DNA of 64,000 nt from Zeimonas arvi (GTDB lineage Bacteria; Pseudomonadota; Gammaproteobacteria; Burkholderiales; Burkholderiaceae_E). Shown in pieces: positions 32,331 through 38,974 of the stretch. How positions within the stretch are numbered: position 1 is the first letter of the stretch; each line of letters begins with the position of its first letter. The notes under the pieces were generated by a model that saw nothing but the letters and a program-made list of their open reading frames with translations, was not told where the DNA came from and ran no database searches. The stretch is from NCBI RefSeq assembly GCF_008039575.1, contig NZ_VDUY01000008.1:1-64000 (forward strand), in the 5' to 3' direction. A program made the position numbers and the translations under genes.

Positions 32331-32753
32331 TCATTTGCCGGTATGCCAGTTCTCGAGGAACAGGCCCTCGAAGCCGGCGAAGTCTCCCAGGTTGCGGGTG
32401 ACCAGCGTCAGTCCCCGAGTGACCGCGATCGCGGCGATCTCGCCGTCCGCGCGAGGCGCAGGCTTGCCGAGCCCGGAAAGACGGGCCCGCTCGCGGCCCA
32501 GCCAGGTCGCAGCGCCGGCGTCGTAGGGCAGCACTTCGATCCGATCCGCCAGGGCCGCGAGCCACCGCTCGAGCATCGCGCGCTTGCGCCCGGGCGCCAG
32601 GCGGGCAACACCGAAGTGCAGTTCCTCCAGAACGGGTGCGGGCAGGGCGCAGTCGGCCTCGTGCCGCGCGAGCGCGCGCGCCACGCCGGCGTCCGGCGCC
32701 TTCGCGGCCATCTCGGAGATCACGTTCGTGTCGAGCAGATAGCGGATCGGCAT
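32331..32753 (-). CDS. vapC: VapC-type PIN-domain ribonuclease toxin
   Basis: A 140-residue PIN-domain protein. The acidic residues are visible: Asp8 in LLDTNVISE, Glu in VLEELHFGV, Asp in RADGEIAAIA and the C-terminal TRNLGDFAGF. VapC toxins cut tRNA or rRNA at specific sites. It is the second gene of a two-gene unit with its antitoxin, 15 bases downstream. It is convergent with the CoA-transferase gene. Confidence 0.9.
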   Translation of the reverse strand: MPIRYLLDTNVISEMAAKAPDAGVARALARHEADCALPAPVLEELHFGVARLAPGRKRAMLERWLAALADRIEVLPYDAGAATWLGRERARLSGLGKPAPRADGEIAAIAVTRGLTLVTRNLGDFAGFEGLFLENWHTGK

Positions 32754-32768
32754 CGCGTTGCCCGGCCG

Positions 32769-33050
32769 TCAGCCGAGATCAGGCACCGGGCGCTCGCCCT
32801 GGTCGCGCAGCCCCTCGAAATCCTGTGGATCTGCGAAAGCGGCATCCTGTTCCGCCATCGCGGCGCGCCACTCGTTCACGAACTCGACGAAGCTGCGCCG
32901 CGGGTGCGCAAGCCGCTGGTAGTCGGCCTGCGAGAGAATCACTGCTACCGGTTTGCCCCGCCGCGTGATTTGCACCGGTTCGCCGGTCTCGACTTGCTGG
33001 AGCAGGCGGGTCAGATGGGCCTTTGCGTCGGCTACCGAGACCTCGGACAT
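32769..33050 (-). CDS. Phd/YefM-type antitoxin
   Basis: A 93-residue antitoxin: MSEVSVADAKAHLTRLLQQVE with ITRRGKPVAVILSQADYQRL, the Phd/YefM DNA-binding fold, followed by an acidic C-terminal tail that would bind the PIN toxin. GGAG 7 bases upstream favours ATG 33050 over an in-frame ATG at 33062. The pairing of a Phd-type antitoxin with a VapC toxin is common. The inverted repeat at 33064-33087 is the likely autoregulatory operator. Confidence 0.9.
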   Translation of the reverse strand: MSEVSVADAKAHLTRLLQQVETGEPVQITRRGKPVAVILSQADYQRLAHPRRSFVEFVNEWRAAMAEQDAAFADPQDFEGLRDQGERPVPDLG

Positions 33051-33063
33051 CGCAGACTCCATT

Positions 33064-34280: not shown

Positions 34281-35116
34281 TGTCCACGGCCTCCACGCCG
34301 TCTTCCGGCGCGGCCGCGCTCTCCCTCGAAGGCGTCACCTGCACCTTCGTCTCGCGCGACGATCCGGGCCAGCGCTACACCGCGGTCCGCGACGTCGACC
34401 TGCGCATCGCGCCGGGCGAGTTCGTGTCGGTGGTCGGCCCCACCGGTTGCGGCAAGTCCACCTTGCTCAACGTGGGCGCCGGCCTGCTCGAGCCCTCGAC
34501 CGGCAAGGTCGAGGTGTTCGGCCAGCCGCTGAAGGGCGTGAACGCGCGTGCCGGCTACATGTTCCAGGCCGAGGCGCTGATGCCCTGGCGCAGCGCGCTG
34601 GCCAACGTGATGGCCGGCCTGCAGTTCCGGGGCGTGCCGGATGCGCAGGCGCGCGAGCAGGGCGAAGAGTGGCTGCGCCGCGTGGGCCTGGGCGGCTTTG
34701 GCGACCGCTATCCGCACCAGCTCTCGGGCGGGATGCGCAAGCGGGTGGCGCTCGCGCAGACGCTGATCCTGGACCCGGACATCATCCTGATGGACGAGCC
34801 CTTCTCGGCGCTGGACATCCAGACGCGCCAGCTGATGGAGAACGAGGTGCTCGAGCTGTGGGCGGCCAGTCGCAAGGCAGTGCTGTTCATCACCCACGAC
34901 CTCGACGAGGCGATCGCGATGAGCGACCGCGTGGTGGTGCTGTCGGCCGGTCCCGCCTCGCACCCGATCGGCGAGTTCGTCGTGGATCTGCCGCGCCCGC
35001 GCGACGTGGCCGAGATCCGCACCCAGCCCGAGTTCATCGCGCTGCACGAGCAGATCTGGTCGGTGCTGCGCGAGGAAGTGTTGAAGGGCTACGCGCAGCA
35101 GAAGCGCGTTGCATGA
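34280..35116 (+). CDS. ABC transporter ATP-binding protein, NitT/TauT type
   Basis: A 278-residue ATPase. Walker A GPTGCGKST, Q-loop MFQAEALMPW, signature LSGGMRKR, Walker B IILMDEPFSALD and the switch His (FITHDLDEA) are all intact. ATG 34280 overlaps the TGA of the binding-protein gene (34278-34280), so the genes are coupled. Closest by motif to SsuB/TauB/NrtD-type ATPases. Confidence 0.94.
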   Translation: MSTASTPSSGAAALSLEGVTCTFVSRDDPGQRYTAVRDVDLRIAPGEFVSVVGPTGCGKSTLLNVGAGLLEPSTGKVEVFGQPLKGVNARAGYMFQAEALMPWRSALANVMAGLQFRGVPDAQAREQGEEWLRRVGLGGFGDRYPHQLSGGMRKRVALAQTLILDPDIILMDEPFSALDIQTRQLMENEVLELWAASRKAVLFITHDLDEAIAMSDRVVVLSAGPASHPIGEFVVDLPRPRDVAEIRTQPEFIALHEQIWSVLREEVLKGYAQQKRVA

Positions 35117-35167
35117 GCGGGGGCCCGGCCGGGCGCTCCGTCATCGAATGAATCCCGGTCTACCCAG

Positions 35168-35980
35168 ATGAAGATTTCCTCTTTCCAGTTGCGGATGTTG
35201 CAGGTGCTGGTGCTGGCCGCCGTGCTCGGTTTCTGGCACGTGATGACCAGCCCGACGCTGCTGCCGCCTTTCTATTTCGACAATCCCAGCCAGGCGGCCT
35301 TCTTCTTCGGCGAGCCGCTGAAGGTCTTCGGGCGCGTGGTCGAGTGGTTCGTCAGCGGCGAGATCTACCGGCACCTGTGGATCACGCTGTTCGAGACCAT
35401 GGCCGCCTTCGTGATCGGCACCGTGTCGGGGCTGGCCGTGGGCATGTGGCTCGCGCTGTCGCCCACCGCCGCGGCCATCCTCGACCCCTACATCAAGGCG
35501 ATGAACTCGATGCCACGGGTGATCCTGGCGCCGATCTTCTCGGTCTGGTTCGGCCTGGGGGTGTGGTCGAAGGTGGCGCTGGGCTTCACGCTGGTTTTCT
35601 TCATCGTGTTCTTCAACGTGTACCAGGGCGTGCGCGAGGTCAGCCCGAACATCCTGGCCAGCGCGCGGATGCTGGGTGCGAACAAGCGCCAGCTGCTGCG
35701 CCACGTCTACCTGCCCAGCGCCACCAGCTGGGTGTTCTCCAGCCTGCACACCTCGGTGGGCCTGGCCTTCGTGGGCGCGGTGGTCGGCGAGTACCTGGGC
35801 TCGGCGGCGGGCGTCGGCTACCTGATCCTGCAGGCCGAAGGCACCTTCGACATGAACACGGTGATGGCCGGGATCGTGGTGCTCACCGCCTTCGCACTGG
35901 TGCTCGACTGGGCGGTGGGGGTGGTGGAAAAGCGGCTGATGAAGTGGCAGCCGAAGAGCGGGGAGACGGAGAAGCTCTGA
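35168..35980 (+). CDS. ABC transporter permease, NitT/TauT type
   Basis: A 270-residue permease with about six membrane helices. The EAA loop, which contacts the ATPase, is visible as EVSPNILASARMLGANKRQLLRHVYLPSA. The N-terminal amphipathic lead KISSFQLRMLQVLVL is typical of SsuC-like subunits. It begins 51 bases after the ATPase gene. No terminator was seen after it; 540 bases without a convincing gene follow. Confidence 0.93.
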   Translation: MKISSFQLRMLQVLVLAAVLGFWHVMTSPTLLPPFYFDNPSQAAFFFGEPLKVFGRVVEWFVSGEIYRHLWITLFETMAAFVIGTVSGLAVGMWLALSPTAAAILDPYIKAMNSMPRVILAPIFSVWFGLGVWSKVALGFTLVFFIVFFNVYQGVREVSPNILASARMLGANKRQLLRHVYLPSATSWVFSSLHTSVGLAFVGAVVGEYLGSAAGVGYLILQAEGTFDMNTVMAGIVVLTAFALVLDWAVGVVEKRLMKWQPKSGETEKL

Positions 35981-36335
35981 CCCGGAGCGCGTCGAGGATC
36001 GCCAACGTGATCTTGCGCCCCTGGAGGTCCGGGTGGCAGCCGGGCCGACGGGCGCCGAGTCTGTCGATCGCTCCTGAGGTGCGGGAGCTCGCGTCGGGGC
36101 GACGCTGTGGCCGGGTGATGCCTCCGACGCAAGCGTCTCGATGCCGTGGCGCTGGCCGCGCGCTCGGTGTCTCGACCGATCGCCTGGAAGAGGTGAGGGC
36201 GTGCCGGGTCTTGGCCGGGCGCCGAGCGCGAACCGAGGGCCTCGTCATCGTCCGTGCAAGCAGCGTCATCCAAGGCGCGGCTACCTCGATGCACCCCATG
36301 GAGGCCTGCGCGACTGTCGGCCAAGCTTACAGTCA
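35981..36335. other. gene-poor stretch of unknown content
   Basis: About 355 bases between the permease stop and the upstream elements of the PEP-CTERM-like gene. Open frames exist on both strands (for example 35883-36299 on the minus strand) but have Arg/Pro/Ser-rich products with no recognisable domain and no ribosome binding site. It could be a decayed gene or mobile remnant; I see nothing that decides this. Confidence 0.4.
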
Positions 36336-36355
36336 GTTCCGGAAAGTTCCGGAAA
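36336..36355. promoter_or_regulatory. tandem 10-bp repeats, probable enhancer-binding site
   Basis: Two identical direct copies of GTTCCGGAAA (36336-36345, 36346-36355), each containing the palindrome TTCCGGAA, exactly one helical turn apart. They lie about 110-130 bases before the predicted sigma-54 start site, the normal place for an activator of sigma-54 RNA polymerase. Confidence 0.6.
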
Positions 36356-36362
36356 TTCTCAG

Positions 36363-36383
36363 ACCCCCTGAAATCGGGGGGGT
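36363..36383. promoter_or_regulatory. hairpin between enhancer repeats and sigma-54 promoter
   Basis: ACCCCC (36363-36368) and GGGGGT (36378-36383) can pair around a 9-base loop, followed by an AT-rich ATATAAGTAATTGAATAAAA. It may end transcription from upstream, or the AT-rich stretch may serve as the bending region between activator and promoter. Confidence 0.4.
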
Positions 36384-36439
36384 ATATAAGTAATTGAATA
36401 AAAACAAGAAACACTGTTCTCTTTGTTTCTATGCGCTCA

Positions 36440-36455
36440 TGGTATCGATCTTGCT
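36440..36455 (+). promoter_or_regulatory. sigma-54 (-24/-12) promoter
   Basis: TGGTATCGATCTTGCT: GG at 36441-36442 and GC at 36453-36454 are separated by exactly 10 bases, with the TTGCT of the -12 element complete. The start would be near 36466, 55 bases before the ATG. It matches the RpoN consensus at TGG, A and TTGCT. Confidence 0.72.
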
Positions 36456-36520
36456 TCAGGCAATGACCGGCTTCGGCACGCAGCCACCAGTCGGAACAGC
36501 TCAAAACGGAGGAGAAGAAA

Positions 36521-37414
36521 ATGATGAATGCACGCAGGGGGATCCTGAGCGCGGCCATGTCGCTGGCGCTGTTGGGTCTGGCACCGCAGGCTCACGCCGG
36601 GCCCGTGATCCTCGGAGGCGACGACCTCACCGACCATGGCTCCATCAGCGGGGGCACTCTTCAGGAAGGCTGGCTGTACATCCAGAGGGCGCTGGCGAAC
36701 CTTCTCGGTACGGCAACGATCACCGGCAGCACGGTCCAGATCGCGGTGCTGGGCGCCGCCGACTCCACTGCATCCAGCAGTGACGCCGGTGCGGCAGTTC
36801 ACCATGCCGCCGCCCTCTCGGGATGGACGGTCAACTACTACGACGGCAGTGCCTCGATCGATGGTTTCTTCACGTCACTCGCGGCCGGTACGGTGAAGCC
36901 GACCGTGATGTGGCTGGCGGGAACCGGGGCCTCGAACGATCTCGATTCGTCCGAAGGCGCGTCCCTGACCGCCAACGCGTTGGCGATCAACTCCTTCGTT
37001 ACGGCTGGAGGGGGATTGATGGCGCACGGCTCGGGTGGTGACGCGTACGGTTGGCTGTCGGCATTGCTGCCTGGCATCAGCGAGGTCAGCGGCTGCAATT
37101 CTTCCGGCGCCACCTTGACCGCTGCTGGACAGGCAGCGTTTCCCGGGCTCAGCAACTCGGATGTCGACGCCAACGCCGGACCCTGCCATAGCCACTTCAC
37201 CGGTAACTTCGGCGGACTCACGACGCTTGCGTTCGACGGTCAGCAGCGCTCCTACATCATCGGGGGCGGTGCGAGCACGATCATCCAGTGCGGGCAGCCG
37301 GGCCAGCCGGCCTGTCCGCCGCAGGGTGTTCCCGTGGCGCCGACGATCCCGCTGATGCTCGCGGGCCTGACTGCGCTTCTCGGCGCCCGGCGTCTCAGGA
37401 AGGTTGCGGCGTAG
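36521..37414 (+). CDS. secreted protein with PEP-CTERM-like sorting tail
   Basis: A 297-residue exported protein of unknown function. A signal peptide ends near AHAG (residue 27). The C-terminus has the three-part form of exosortase targets: Pro-containing motif VPVAPTIP, a hydrophobic stretch LMLAGLTALLGA, and a basic end RRLRK. The body contains GGGLMAHGSGGDAYGWL, reminiscent of glutamine-amidotransferase-like folds, and four Cys in two pairs. GGAGGAG lies 6 bases upstream. The sigma-54 promoter before it fits PEP-CTERM genes, which are often RpoN-dependent. The motif is a variant of VPEP, so the exosortase assignment is inference. Confidence 0.75.
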   Translation: MMNARRGILSAAMSLALLGLAPQAHAGPVILGGDDLTDHGSISGGTLQEGWLYIQRALANLLGTATITGSTVQIAVLGAADSTASSSDAGAAVHHAAALSGWTVNYYDGSASIDGFFTSLAAGTVKPTVMWLAGTGASNDLDSSEGASLTANALAINSFVTAGGGLMAHGSGGDAYGWLSALLPGISEVSGCNSSGATLTAAGQAAFPGLSNSDVDANAGPCHSHFTGNFGGLTTLAFDGQQRSYIIGGGASTIIQCGQPGQPACPPQGVPVAPTIPLMLAGLTALLGARRLRKVAA

Positions 37415-37420
37415 TTCGGA

Positions 37421-37456
37421 GCGCGTGGCCGGCCGCGGGGCGGGGCGGCCACGCGC
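37421..37456 (+). terminator. strong hairpin after the PEP-CTERM-like gene
   Basis: Perfect 11-bp stem GCGCGTGGCCG / CGGCCACGCGC around a 14-base GC-rich loop, 6 bases after the stop codon. No T run follows, so if it ends transcription it may act with Rho. The rest of the 312-base gap to carA holds only the probable carA promoter. Confidence 0.4.
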
Positions 37457-37539
37457 GAGATCCGCAAGGAGGGCCTGTCGAGACGGGCCTTTCCGCGCAT
37501 CGATCGGGCAGCGCCGGCATGAAAGTCCGGGCGAAATGA

Positions 37540-37545
37540 TATAAT
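37540..37545 (+). promoter_or_regulatory. -10 element upstream of carA
   Basis: A consensus TATAAT in an AT-rich island (ATGATATAATTCG). No good -35 hexamer was found at 16-18 bases. It would give a leader of about 175 bases before carA, long enough for attenuation-type control, though no terminator-like structure with a T run was seen in it. Confidence 0.5.
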
Positions 37546-37726
37546 TCGAAGGTTTACCCAATGCCCACCGGTTAGCGCCTGCCTTCCCAGAATTCCTGCC
37601 TCCGATCCCGCCCGCCCGCGGCCTTGCGCTGCCCGGCGAGGCAACCCGACTGGCCCGCCCGGGCCCGCGTCGCGTCGGGAGAATCGGTCAGGGGTGCGCC
37701 GGTGAATTCCGCCCCAGGAGTTGCCG

Positions 37727-38974
<1,248 letters not shown>

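Follow-up and report, generated by a model that had tools for sequence, protein, structure and literature searches.

A PEP-CTERM-like gene with a predicted PrsR/sigma-54 promoter at a variable site between an ABC permease gene and carA

The closest described counterpart of the locus presented here is the exosortase A system of Haft et al. (2006; PMC1569441). In the passages of that paper drawn on here, the promoters comprise motif 1, a 17-nt element ending in TTTACA, and motif 2, a -24/-12 element, separated by a spacer of 62.8 nt on average (range 32-92). A GG/GC -24/-12 promoter has been mapped for pepA of Aquincola tertiaricarbonis RN12, a PEP-CTERM gene which is RpoN1-dependent and acts in floc formation, according to the part of that study cited here (PMC9850573). 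IHF-assisted sigma-54 promoters such as those of nif, as outlined in the cited section of PMC7057263, are built in the order activator site, IHF site and -24/-12 element.

The gene analysed in this study encodes a predicted secreted protein, P0001, and lies in the window, i.e., the whole stretch of 64,000 nucleotides examined, which opens contig 8 of an assembly of 3.83 Mb (Table 1). As in the exosortase A system described in the Haft et al. passages, a single gene stands after a large gap and is preceded by motifs 1 and 2, and the genome encodes XrtA, PrsK, PrsR and PrsT. The locus differs from that description in its tail, which reads VPVAP instead of VPEP and scores below the profile cut-offs, and in its spacer, which at 108 bp lies outside the published range. 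The same passages contain neither helical phasing nor a third element, and our literature search retrieved no report of phased spacing or of IHF for exosortase/PrsR promoters; related bacteria show phasing and an IHF-like site, as described below. The P0001 gene shares with pepA of RN12 the GG/GC promoter type, whereas its body is unrelated (no floc_PepA match) and it is known from its sequence alone. The order of elements is that of the nif-type promoters covered by the cited section, except that the PrsR box stands unusually near to the -24/-12 element (~32-87 bp in the genus) and in phase with it, and that the IHF site here is a predicted one. We estimate at roughly 80% the probability that the gene is transcribed by sigma-54 RNA polymerase under PrsR from an IHF-bent promoter, that its product is handled by XrtA, and that gene and promoter arrived as a unit between the permease gene and carA.

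Table 1. Positions of the features in and around the P0001 locus
Feature	Position in the window	Strand	Basis or remark
ABC permease (PF00528), flank	35168..35980	+	Pfam
Insert, from the ABC permease stop codon to the carA leader	35981..37535		blastn breakpoints against G007; unrelated to the 4.5-kb insert of G007, a near-identical genome
PrsR box (motif 1 of Haft 2006), TGTCGGCCAAGCTTACA	36315..36331	+	best motif-1 site of the window; exact TGTCGN7TTACA
Two tandem GTTCCGGAAA repeats in the spacer	36336..36355	+	head to tail; no copy in the genome's other PEP-CTERM promoters
IHF-like site, TAAGTAATTGAAT on the + strand	36387..36399	-	reverse complement of WATCAANNNNTTR with one mismatch
Predicted sigma-54 -24/-12 promoter (motif 2), TGGTATCGATCTTGCT	36440..36455	+	best motif-2 site of the window; ends ~65 bp before the ATG
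Likely ribosome-binding site, GGAGGAG	36508..36514	+	sequence reading
Secreted-protein gene, P0001 (297 aa)	36521..37414	+	ORF list and sequence
Likely signal peptide, residues 1-26, ending AQAHA	36521..36598	+	read from the sequence; residues 6-17 helical in the model
Alpha/beta body domain, residues 27-255	36599..37285	+	rare, patchy family without a Pfam/NCBIfam model
C-terminal anchor, residues 270-297, VPVAPTIPLMLAGLTALLGARRLRKVAA, divergent PEP-CTERM-like	37328..37411	+	profile searches, alignment, genus tail model
carA, carbamoyl-phosphate synthase small chain, flank	37721..38974	+	profile match

The genes of the exosortase system were found within ~20 kb of contig 3. They encode XrtA (323 bits; cut-off 208) with an EpsI part (66.9 bits), PrsK (691.9 bits), PrsR (735.9 bits), PrsT (753.5 bits) and an XrtA-type chain-length protein (564.5 bits), all scoring above the curated cut-offs. 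In the PF09721 search of the genome, XrtA was the sole exosortase match, and the initial annotation was thus right that no exosortase lies near the gene. A genome without an exosortase and an rpoN-linked regulator had been named there as evidence against the reading; the three proteins to be looked for, XrtA, PrsK and PrsR, are all encoded, together with PrsT. The PrsR profile gave eight further matches below its cut-off, which represent other PrsR-like sigma-54 regulators. PF07589 matched at six places in the genome over the cut-off, one of them marginally (20.8 against 20.7).

The -24/-12 element, for which a GG-N10-GC spacing had been claimed earlier, reads TGG-N8-TTGCT with GG at 36441-36442 and GC at 36453-36454, and hence has that spacing. 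By plain consensus it agrees in 9 of 12 letters, a score reached or exceeded by 34 sites on both strands of the window. For scoring by matrix we used 30 upstream regions of other PEP-CTERM-type genes (23 from the genus, 6 from the genome itself and 1 from a related genus). Only 23 of the 30 genus loci entered the matrix, as two were duplicates from the own genome and five (L041, L045, L046, L058 and L059) had an unclear tail or an odd frame. L045, L046 and L059 (G008, G006 and G014, respectively) represent a frame of 488 aa, seen in several genus genomes, whose weak PF07589 match is probably due to chance. The consensus of this first matrix is TGTCGG-N5-YTTACA for motif 1 and TGGCAC-like/TTGCTT for motif 2. 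With it, the -24/-12 element scored 18.4 bits, the highest in 64 kb (next 15.3; maximum of 20 order-1 Markov sequences 15.6), and the PrsR box 15.8 bits (next 13.5; maximum of the same null 12.9). A second matrix, made from 44 promoters of other genus genomes, also placed both first in the window, at 21.3 bits (next 16.1) and 19.1 bits (next 13.5), respectively. The genome has five exact copies of TGTCGN7TTACA, of which four precede PF07589 genes and the fifth is the box of the window. Relaxing the pattern by one mismatch makes it noisy: 38 places are then found, compared with 17 when it is reversed. Scans for sigma-70 promoters and T-run terminators gave none.

Between the two motifs stand the 10-bp repeats, which had been noted before as lying at enhancer distance. 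The repeats are real, with two matches to GTTCCGGAAA in the window against 0.06 expected from shuffles. Nevertheless, the 20-mer, with up to three mismatches allowed, recurs at a single other place in the genome, which is intergenic and has no PEP-CTERM gene downstream. Because it precedes no other PEP-CTERM gene, we rejected the repeats as a common enhancer; the shared element is the PrsR box, which ends four bases before them and had been overlooked. Of the initial annotation, membership in a sigma-54/PrsR-type PEP-CTERM regulon therefore holds, given the system genes in the genome and the relatives with curated PEP-CTERM tails, while the repeats lose their place as the main regulatory element. 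One could still take them for the true activator site, with the gene under a different sigma-54 activator, as they exceed chance, are palindromic, lie one turn apart and ~85 bp upstream of the -24/-12 element, and the genome holds PrsR-like regulators besides PrsR. We consider this very improbable, for a full PrsR box stands immediately upstream and the only recurrence of the 20-mer, with three mismatches, is away from PEP-CTERM genes. That near-copy, TCCGGAACGTTCCGGAAC, lies at positions 3590-3609 of L030 between divergent genes, presumably ppsA and the gene for a PEP-synthetase regulator by their sequences, and is possibly a site for another regulator. A degenerate second PrsR box at 36347, within the repeats, was dismissed as not significant, since its score of 4.7 bits is reached by 67 positions on both strands of the window.

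The long spacer was compared with those of related bacteria. In the genus, 58 of 63 further rows were used, without two that lay at contig edges and three that were weak 488-aa frames, and 44 of these held-out regions contained the motif pair when spacers of 0-200 bp were allowed. The 44 spacers cluster at 32, 41-42, 51-54, 61-66, 72-75 and 84-87 bp, with a best period of 10.6 bp (R 0.76; 0 of 20,000 jittered sets as high); with one promoter per similarity cluster (37 promoters), R was 0.77. Among 300 genomes of the order searched with the exact pattern, spacers of 62-92 bp were found in 66 genomes, against three matches of the reversed-pattern control, and among at least 150 matches listed they group at 62-65 (90), 72-77 (30) and 81-89 bp (30). 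Judged by these counts, the distance from the PrsR box to the -24/-12 element is helically phased in related bacteria. Spacers of 93-123 bp were less common, with 24 matches in 21 genomes and three in the control; twelve of the 24 fall at 94-98 bp, and the others include 104, 105, 105 and 107 bp besides the window. The 23 long-spacer matches other than the window (94-120 bp) are weakly phased (R 0.38, reached by 739 of 20,000 random sets), and part of them may be due to chance. The spacer of the window itself is ~2.5 bp off the mean phase, an offset larger than that of 142 of the 150 order-wide promoters among the matches listed. This bears on the possibility that a 10-bp duplication, neutral or selected, gave rise to the repeats and lengthened the spacer by ~1-2 turns. 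Ten base pairs are about one turn, genus spacers step by ~10.6 bp, and spacers of 104-107 bp are seen in four further order-wide matches; yet the spacer is out of phase, and no orthologous promoter lacking the repeats was found. We hold this origin to be plausible, if somewhat less probable than its opposite.

The spacer also contains a putative IHF site. The consensus for IHF is WATCAANNNNTTR, which is degenerate; the site in the window agrees at 12 of 13 positions, four of which are N, and ~1 in 20 shuffled genus spacers reach the same score. Its start lies 55 bp past the PrsR box and 53 bp short of the T of TGG; the latter distance is two turns beyond the commonest one in the genus, 32 bp. 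Across the genus, 48 of 69 spacers have an IHF-like site of at least 12/13 in either orientation, against three in a mirrored control and a mean of 3.1 (maximum 8) in shuffles. The sites start at preferred distances before the -24/-12 element: 21, 32 and 41-42 bp in reverse and 19-21 and 29-31 bp in forward orientation. In 40 order-wide promoters from other genomes the enrichment was moderate (16 of 40; shuffles 5.5, maximum 15). At the genus offsets, 19 and 20 of these 40 score at least 11; shifting the offsets by two to six bases lowers these counts to 1-7 and 4-10. The offsets were taken from the genus counts, and the order-wide offsets were already known at the time of this comparison. The phased AT-rich element could instead be intrinsically curved or bound by some other protein, as a degenerate consensus and the moderate enrichment in AT-rich order-wide spacers would allow. 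This is unlikely in our judgement, as the genus spacers exceed both controls by far and the two orientations occur each with its own phased offsets, repeated in the 40 order-wide promoters.

The C-terminus of P0001 had been described as a motif-hydrophobic-basic tail departing from VPEP. The departure is evident: in place of the near-invariant P-x-P motif the protein has VPVAP, one residue longer than VPxP. The hydrophobic-basic part of VPVAPTIPLMLAGLTALLGARRLRKVAA is intact, whereas the PEP-CTERM and IPTL-CTERM profiles miss the tail. No Pfam or NCBIfam family matched P0001 at E<=10, PF07589 and TIGR02595 included, and the body is thus without a clear family, as had been stated. An IPTL-CTERM identity was discarded because PF18203 and TIGR04174 gave no match. 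Since the PEP-CTERM profiles do not match and P-x-P is absent, P0001 is not classed as a PEP-CTERM member in the strict sense. A tail model built from 80 genus tails, however, gave it 13.4 bits, where the best of 312 decoys reached 6.4 and the true tails of relatives 29-39 bits; the alignment covers the hydrophobic helix and basic C-terminus of P0001 and leaves the VPxP part outside. Moreover, P0001 and the relatives with VPTPG and VPEP tails (L006 and L014, respectively) have the linker IQCGQPGQPxCP near the anchor in common, which indicates that the VPVAP tail occupies the PEP-CTERM place. The tail might have decayed, in which case the gene would still belong to the PrsR regulon and the protein would be anchored in the inner membrane, facing the periplasm, and would no longer be a substrate of XrtA. 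The broken VPxP, the profiles that miss it and the intact tails of the nearest relatives agree with such a decay; the whole hydrophobic and basic parts, a score above all 312 decoys and the intact body and reading frame speak against it, and we regard it as rather improbable. P0001 most likely functions like a PEP-CTERM protein, as far as its sequence tells, and the gene is best filed as PEP-CTERM-like, with a divergent tail, in the PrsR regulon.

In NCBIfam, choice-of-anchor surface proteins are those in which one secreted body is combined with interchangeable PEP-CTERM, IPTL-CTERM or LPXTG anchors. The body of P0001 shows the same anchor swapping and differs from those families in lacking an NCBIfam or Pfam model; none covers the body among the ten aligned members, in which Pfam detects only PF07589 (two members), PF18203 (two) and PF00746 (one). 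The nearest relatives are nine loci out of 68 candidate stretches, with a common body in which 12 to 41 columns are invariant depending on the row set. The L014 fragment has a VPEP tail (81% identity over 59 residues) and L006 a VPTPG tail (65% over residues 103-295); L007 and L009 end with IPTLSEW, L012 has LPATG, L010 has no evident anchor, and the tails of three Chloroflexi loci are unclassified. In the latter (L008, L011 and L013), the motif P-[DSN]-T-G-S-G-P recurs at the C-terminus, followed by a helix and a short basic end with at most one basic pair, possibly an undescribed sorting signal. The family is rare, occurring in 5 of 399 genomes of the order, and the 17 other genus genomes hold no close relative of P0001.

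Two structural models of the body (pLDDT 76.2 and 82.5; pTM of the better one 0.86) describe an alternating alpha/beta domain. Foldseek searches of the PDB gave no match at E<=0.001 (0 of 1059 and 0 of 923), with only weak likeness to periplasmic binding proteins and other alpha/beta folds, and the best E in a PDB sequence profile search was 0.37. A ThuA/amidotransferase-like fold was also considered, but was not demonstrated and was dropped.

The promoters of relatives vary with the anchors. Motif 1 was found before each of the four PEP-tailed relatives whose upstream sequence is available, with, in turn, one site of 25.5 bits, two of 25.5, one of 10.5 (L151, weak), and two of 24.5 and 20.2 bits; in the same order, motif 2 scores 23.6, 11.6 (weak), 17.5 and 10.7 bits (weak), and the spacers measure 60, 86, 61 and 53. 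Neither of the two IPTL-tailed relatives has motif 1 (best 1.8 and 3.3 bits). In this small set, in which the body and tail of the G238 relative on two contig ends were treated as one gene, anchor type and promoter type coincide as judged by the predicted sites. Upstream of the G238 relative lie two near-identical PrsR boxes 151 bp apart (L150, 1117 and 1268, reverse strand), and further PrsR boxes are found in the same contig end.

The gene had been called an orphan, and so it is in its immediate neighbourhood; the site itself is a PEP-CTERM hot spot in the genus. Against G007, blastn aligned window positions 35001-35980 at 98.5% and 37536-37799 at 97.0% identity, with nothing between. The corresponding 4.7-kb interval of G007 (L174) holds three other PEP-CTERM genes, of which two are divergent and have a PrsR box each. 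Thus, with near-identical flanks enclosing other genes of this type, the window gene occupies such a hot spot. carA was found in all 18 genus genomes, and 18 carA loci were examined, G010 being left out at a contig edge. The ABC permease of the window lies upstream of carA in 13 of them; the other five are non-syntenic. Four syntenic sites are empty (235-260 bp from permease to carA) and nine are occupied (1.7-4.7 kb, the window included). Each of the eight other occupied sites (L174, L179, L180 and L185-L189) has one or more ORFs that combine a PEP-CTERM-type tail with motif 1, and these genes vary within the genus; six have PF07589 matches over the cut-off, and two (G009 C73 and G017 C63) were recognised by tail pattern alone. 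No such ORF was present in the stretches examined at the four empty and five non-syntenic loci. A plasmid origin of the insert was rejected, as neither it nor P0001 matched the plasmid collection. The insert has no convincing pair of terminal repeats (one 14-nt inverted repeat lies 3' of the gene), and no mobile element was seen at the site. Our literature search for a PEP-CTERM hot spot of this type returned nothing relevant. Elsewhere in the window (32331-33062, - strand), a PIN-domain protein gene stands behind a Phd/YefM-type antitoxin gene (PF01850, PF02604), forming a type II toxin-antitoxin pair.

The gene is very probably switched on by the exosortase system, and its protein is probably sorted to the surface by the same system. 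In the model we propose, PrsK would activate PrsR, which would bind its box, and sigma-54 RNA polymerase would transcribe the gene from the -24/-12 element. A DNA-bending protein, most likely IHF at the predicted site, would fold the DNA and bring PrsR into contact with the polymerase; in related bacteria the three sites stand whole helical turns apart. The signal peptide would take the alpha/beta protein into the periplasm, where the hydrophobic-basic anchor would retain it and XrtA, the single exosortase of the genome, would handle it for delivery to the cell surface or the exopolysaccharide. The gene may have arrived with its own promoter as a unit, at a site where PEP-CTERM genes seem to come and go. 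It is attractive to speculate more broadly that PrsR/sigma-54 promoters are three-part machines with an IHF-type bend and one-turn spacing steps, and that self-contained PEP-CTERM-type units, each made up of box, bend site, promoter, signal peptide, body and anchor, enter between the permease gene and carA with anchor and promoter type swapped together, the unit in the window representing an extreme of spacing; for this generalisation we consider the odds to be even.

The exosortase signal and its regulation rest mostly on prediction, and such systems shape flocs and biofilms. The helical spacing rule and the IHF-like site would give the PrsR promoter a defined layout open to testing, and may help to detect members of the regulon whose tails are missed by profiles, such as the gene described here. 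The unmodelled body family with its swapped anchors may serve as a natural probe of the substrates of different sortase-type systems, and the PEP-CTERM hot spot next to carA points to an exchange of surface proteins as units.
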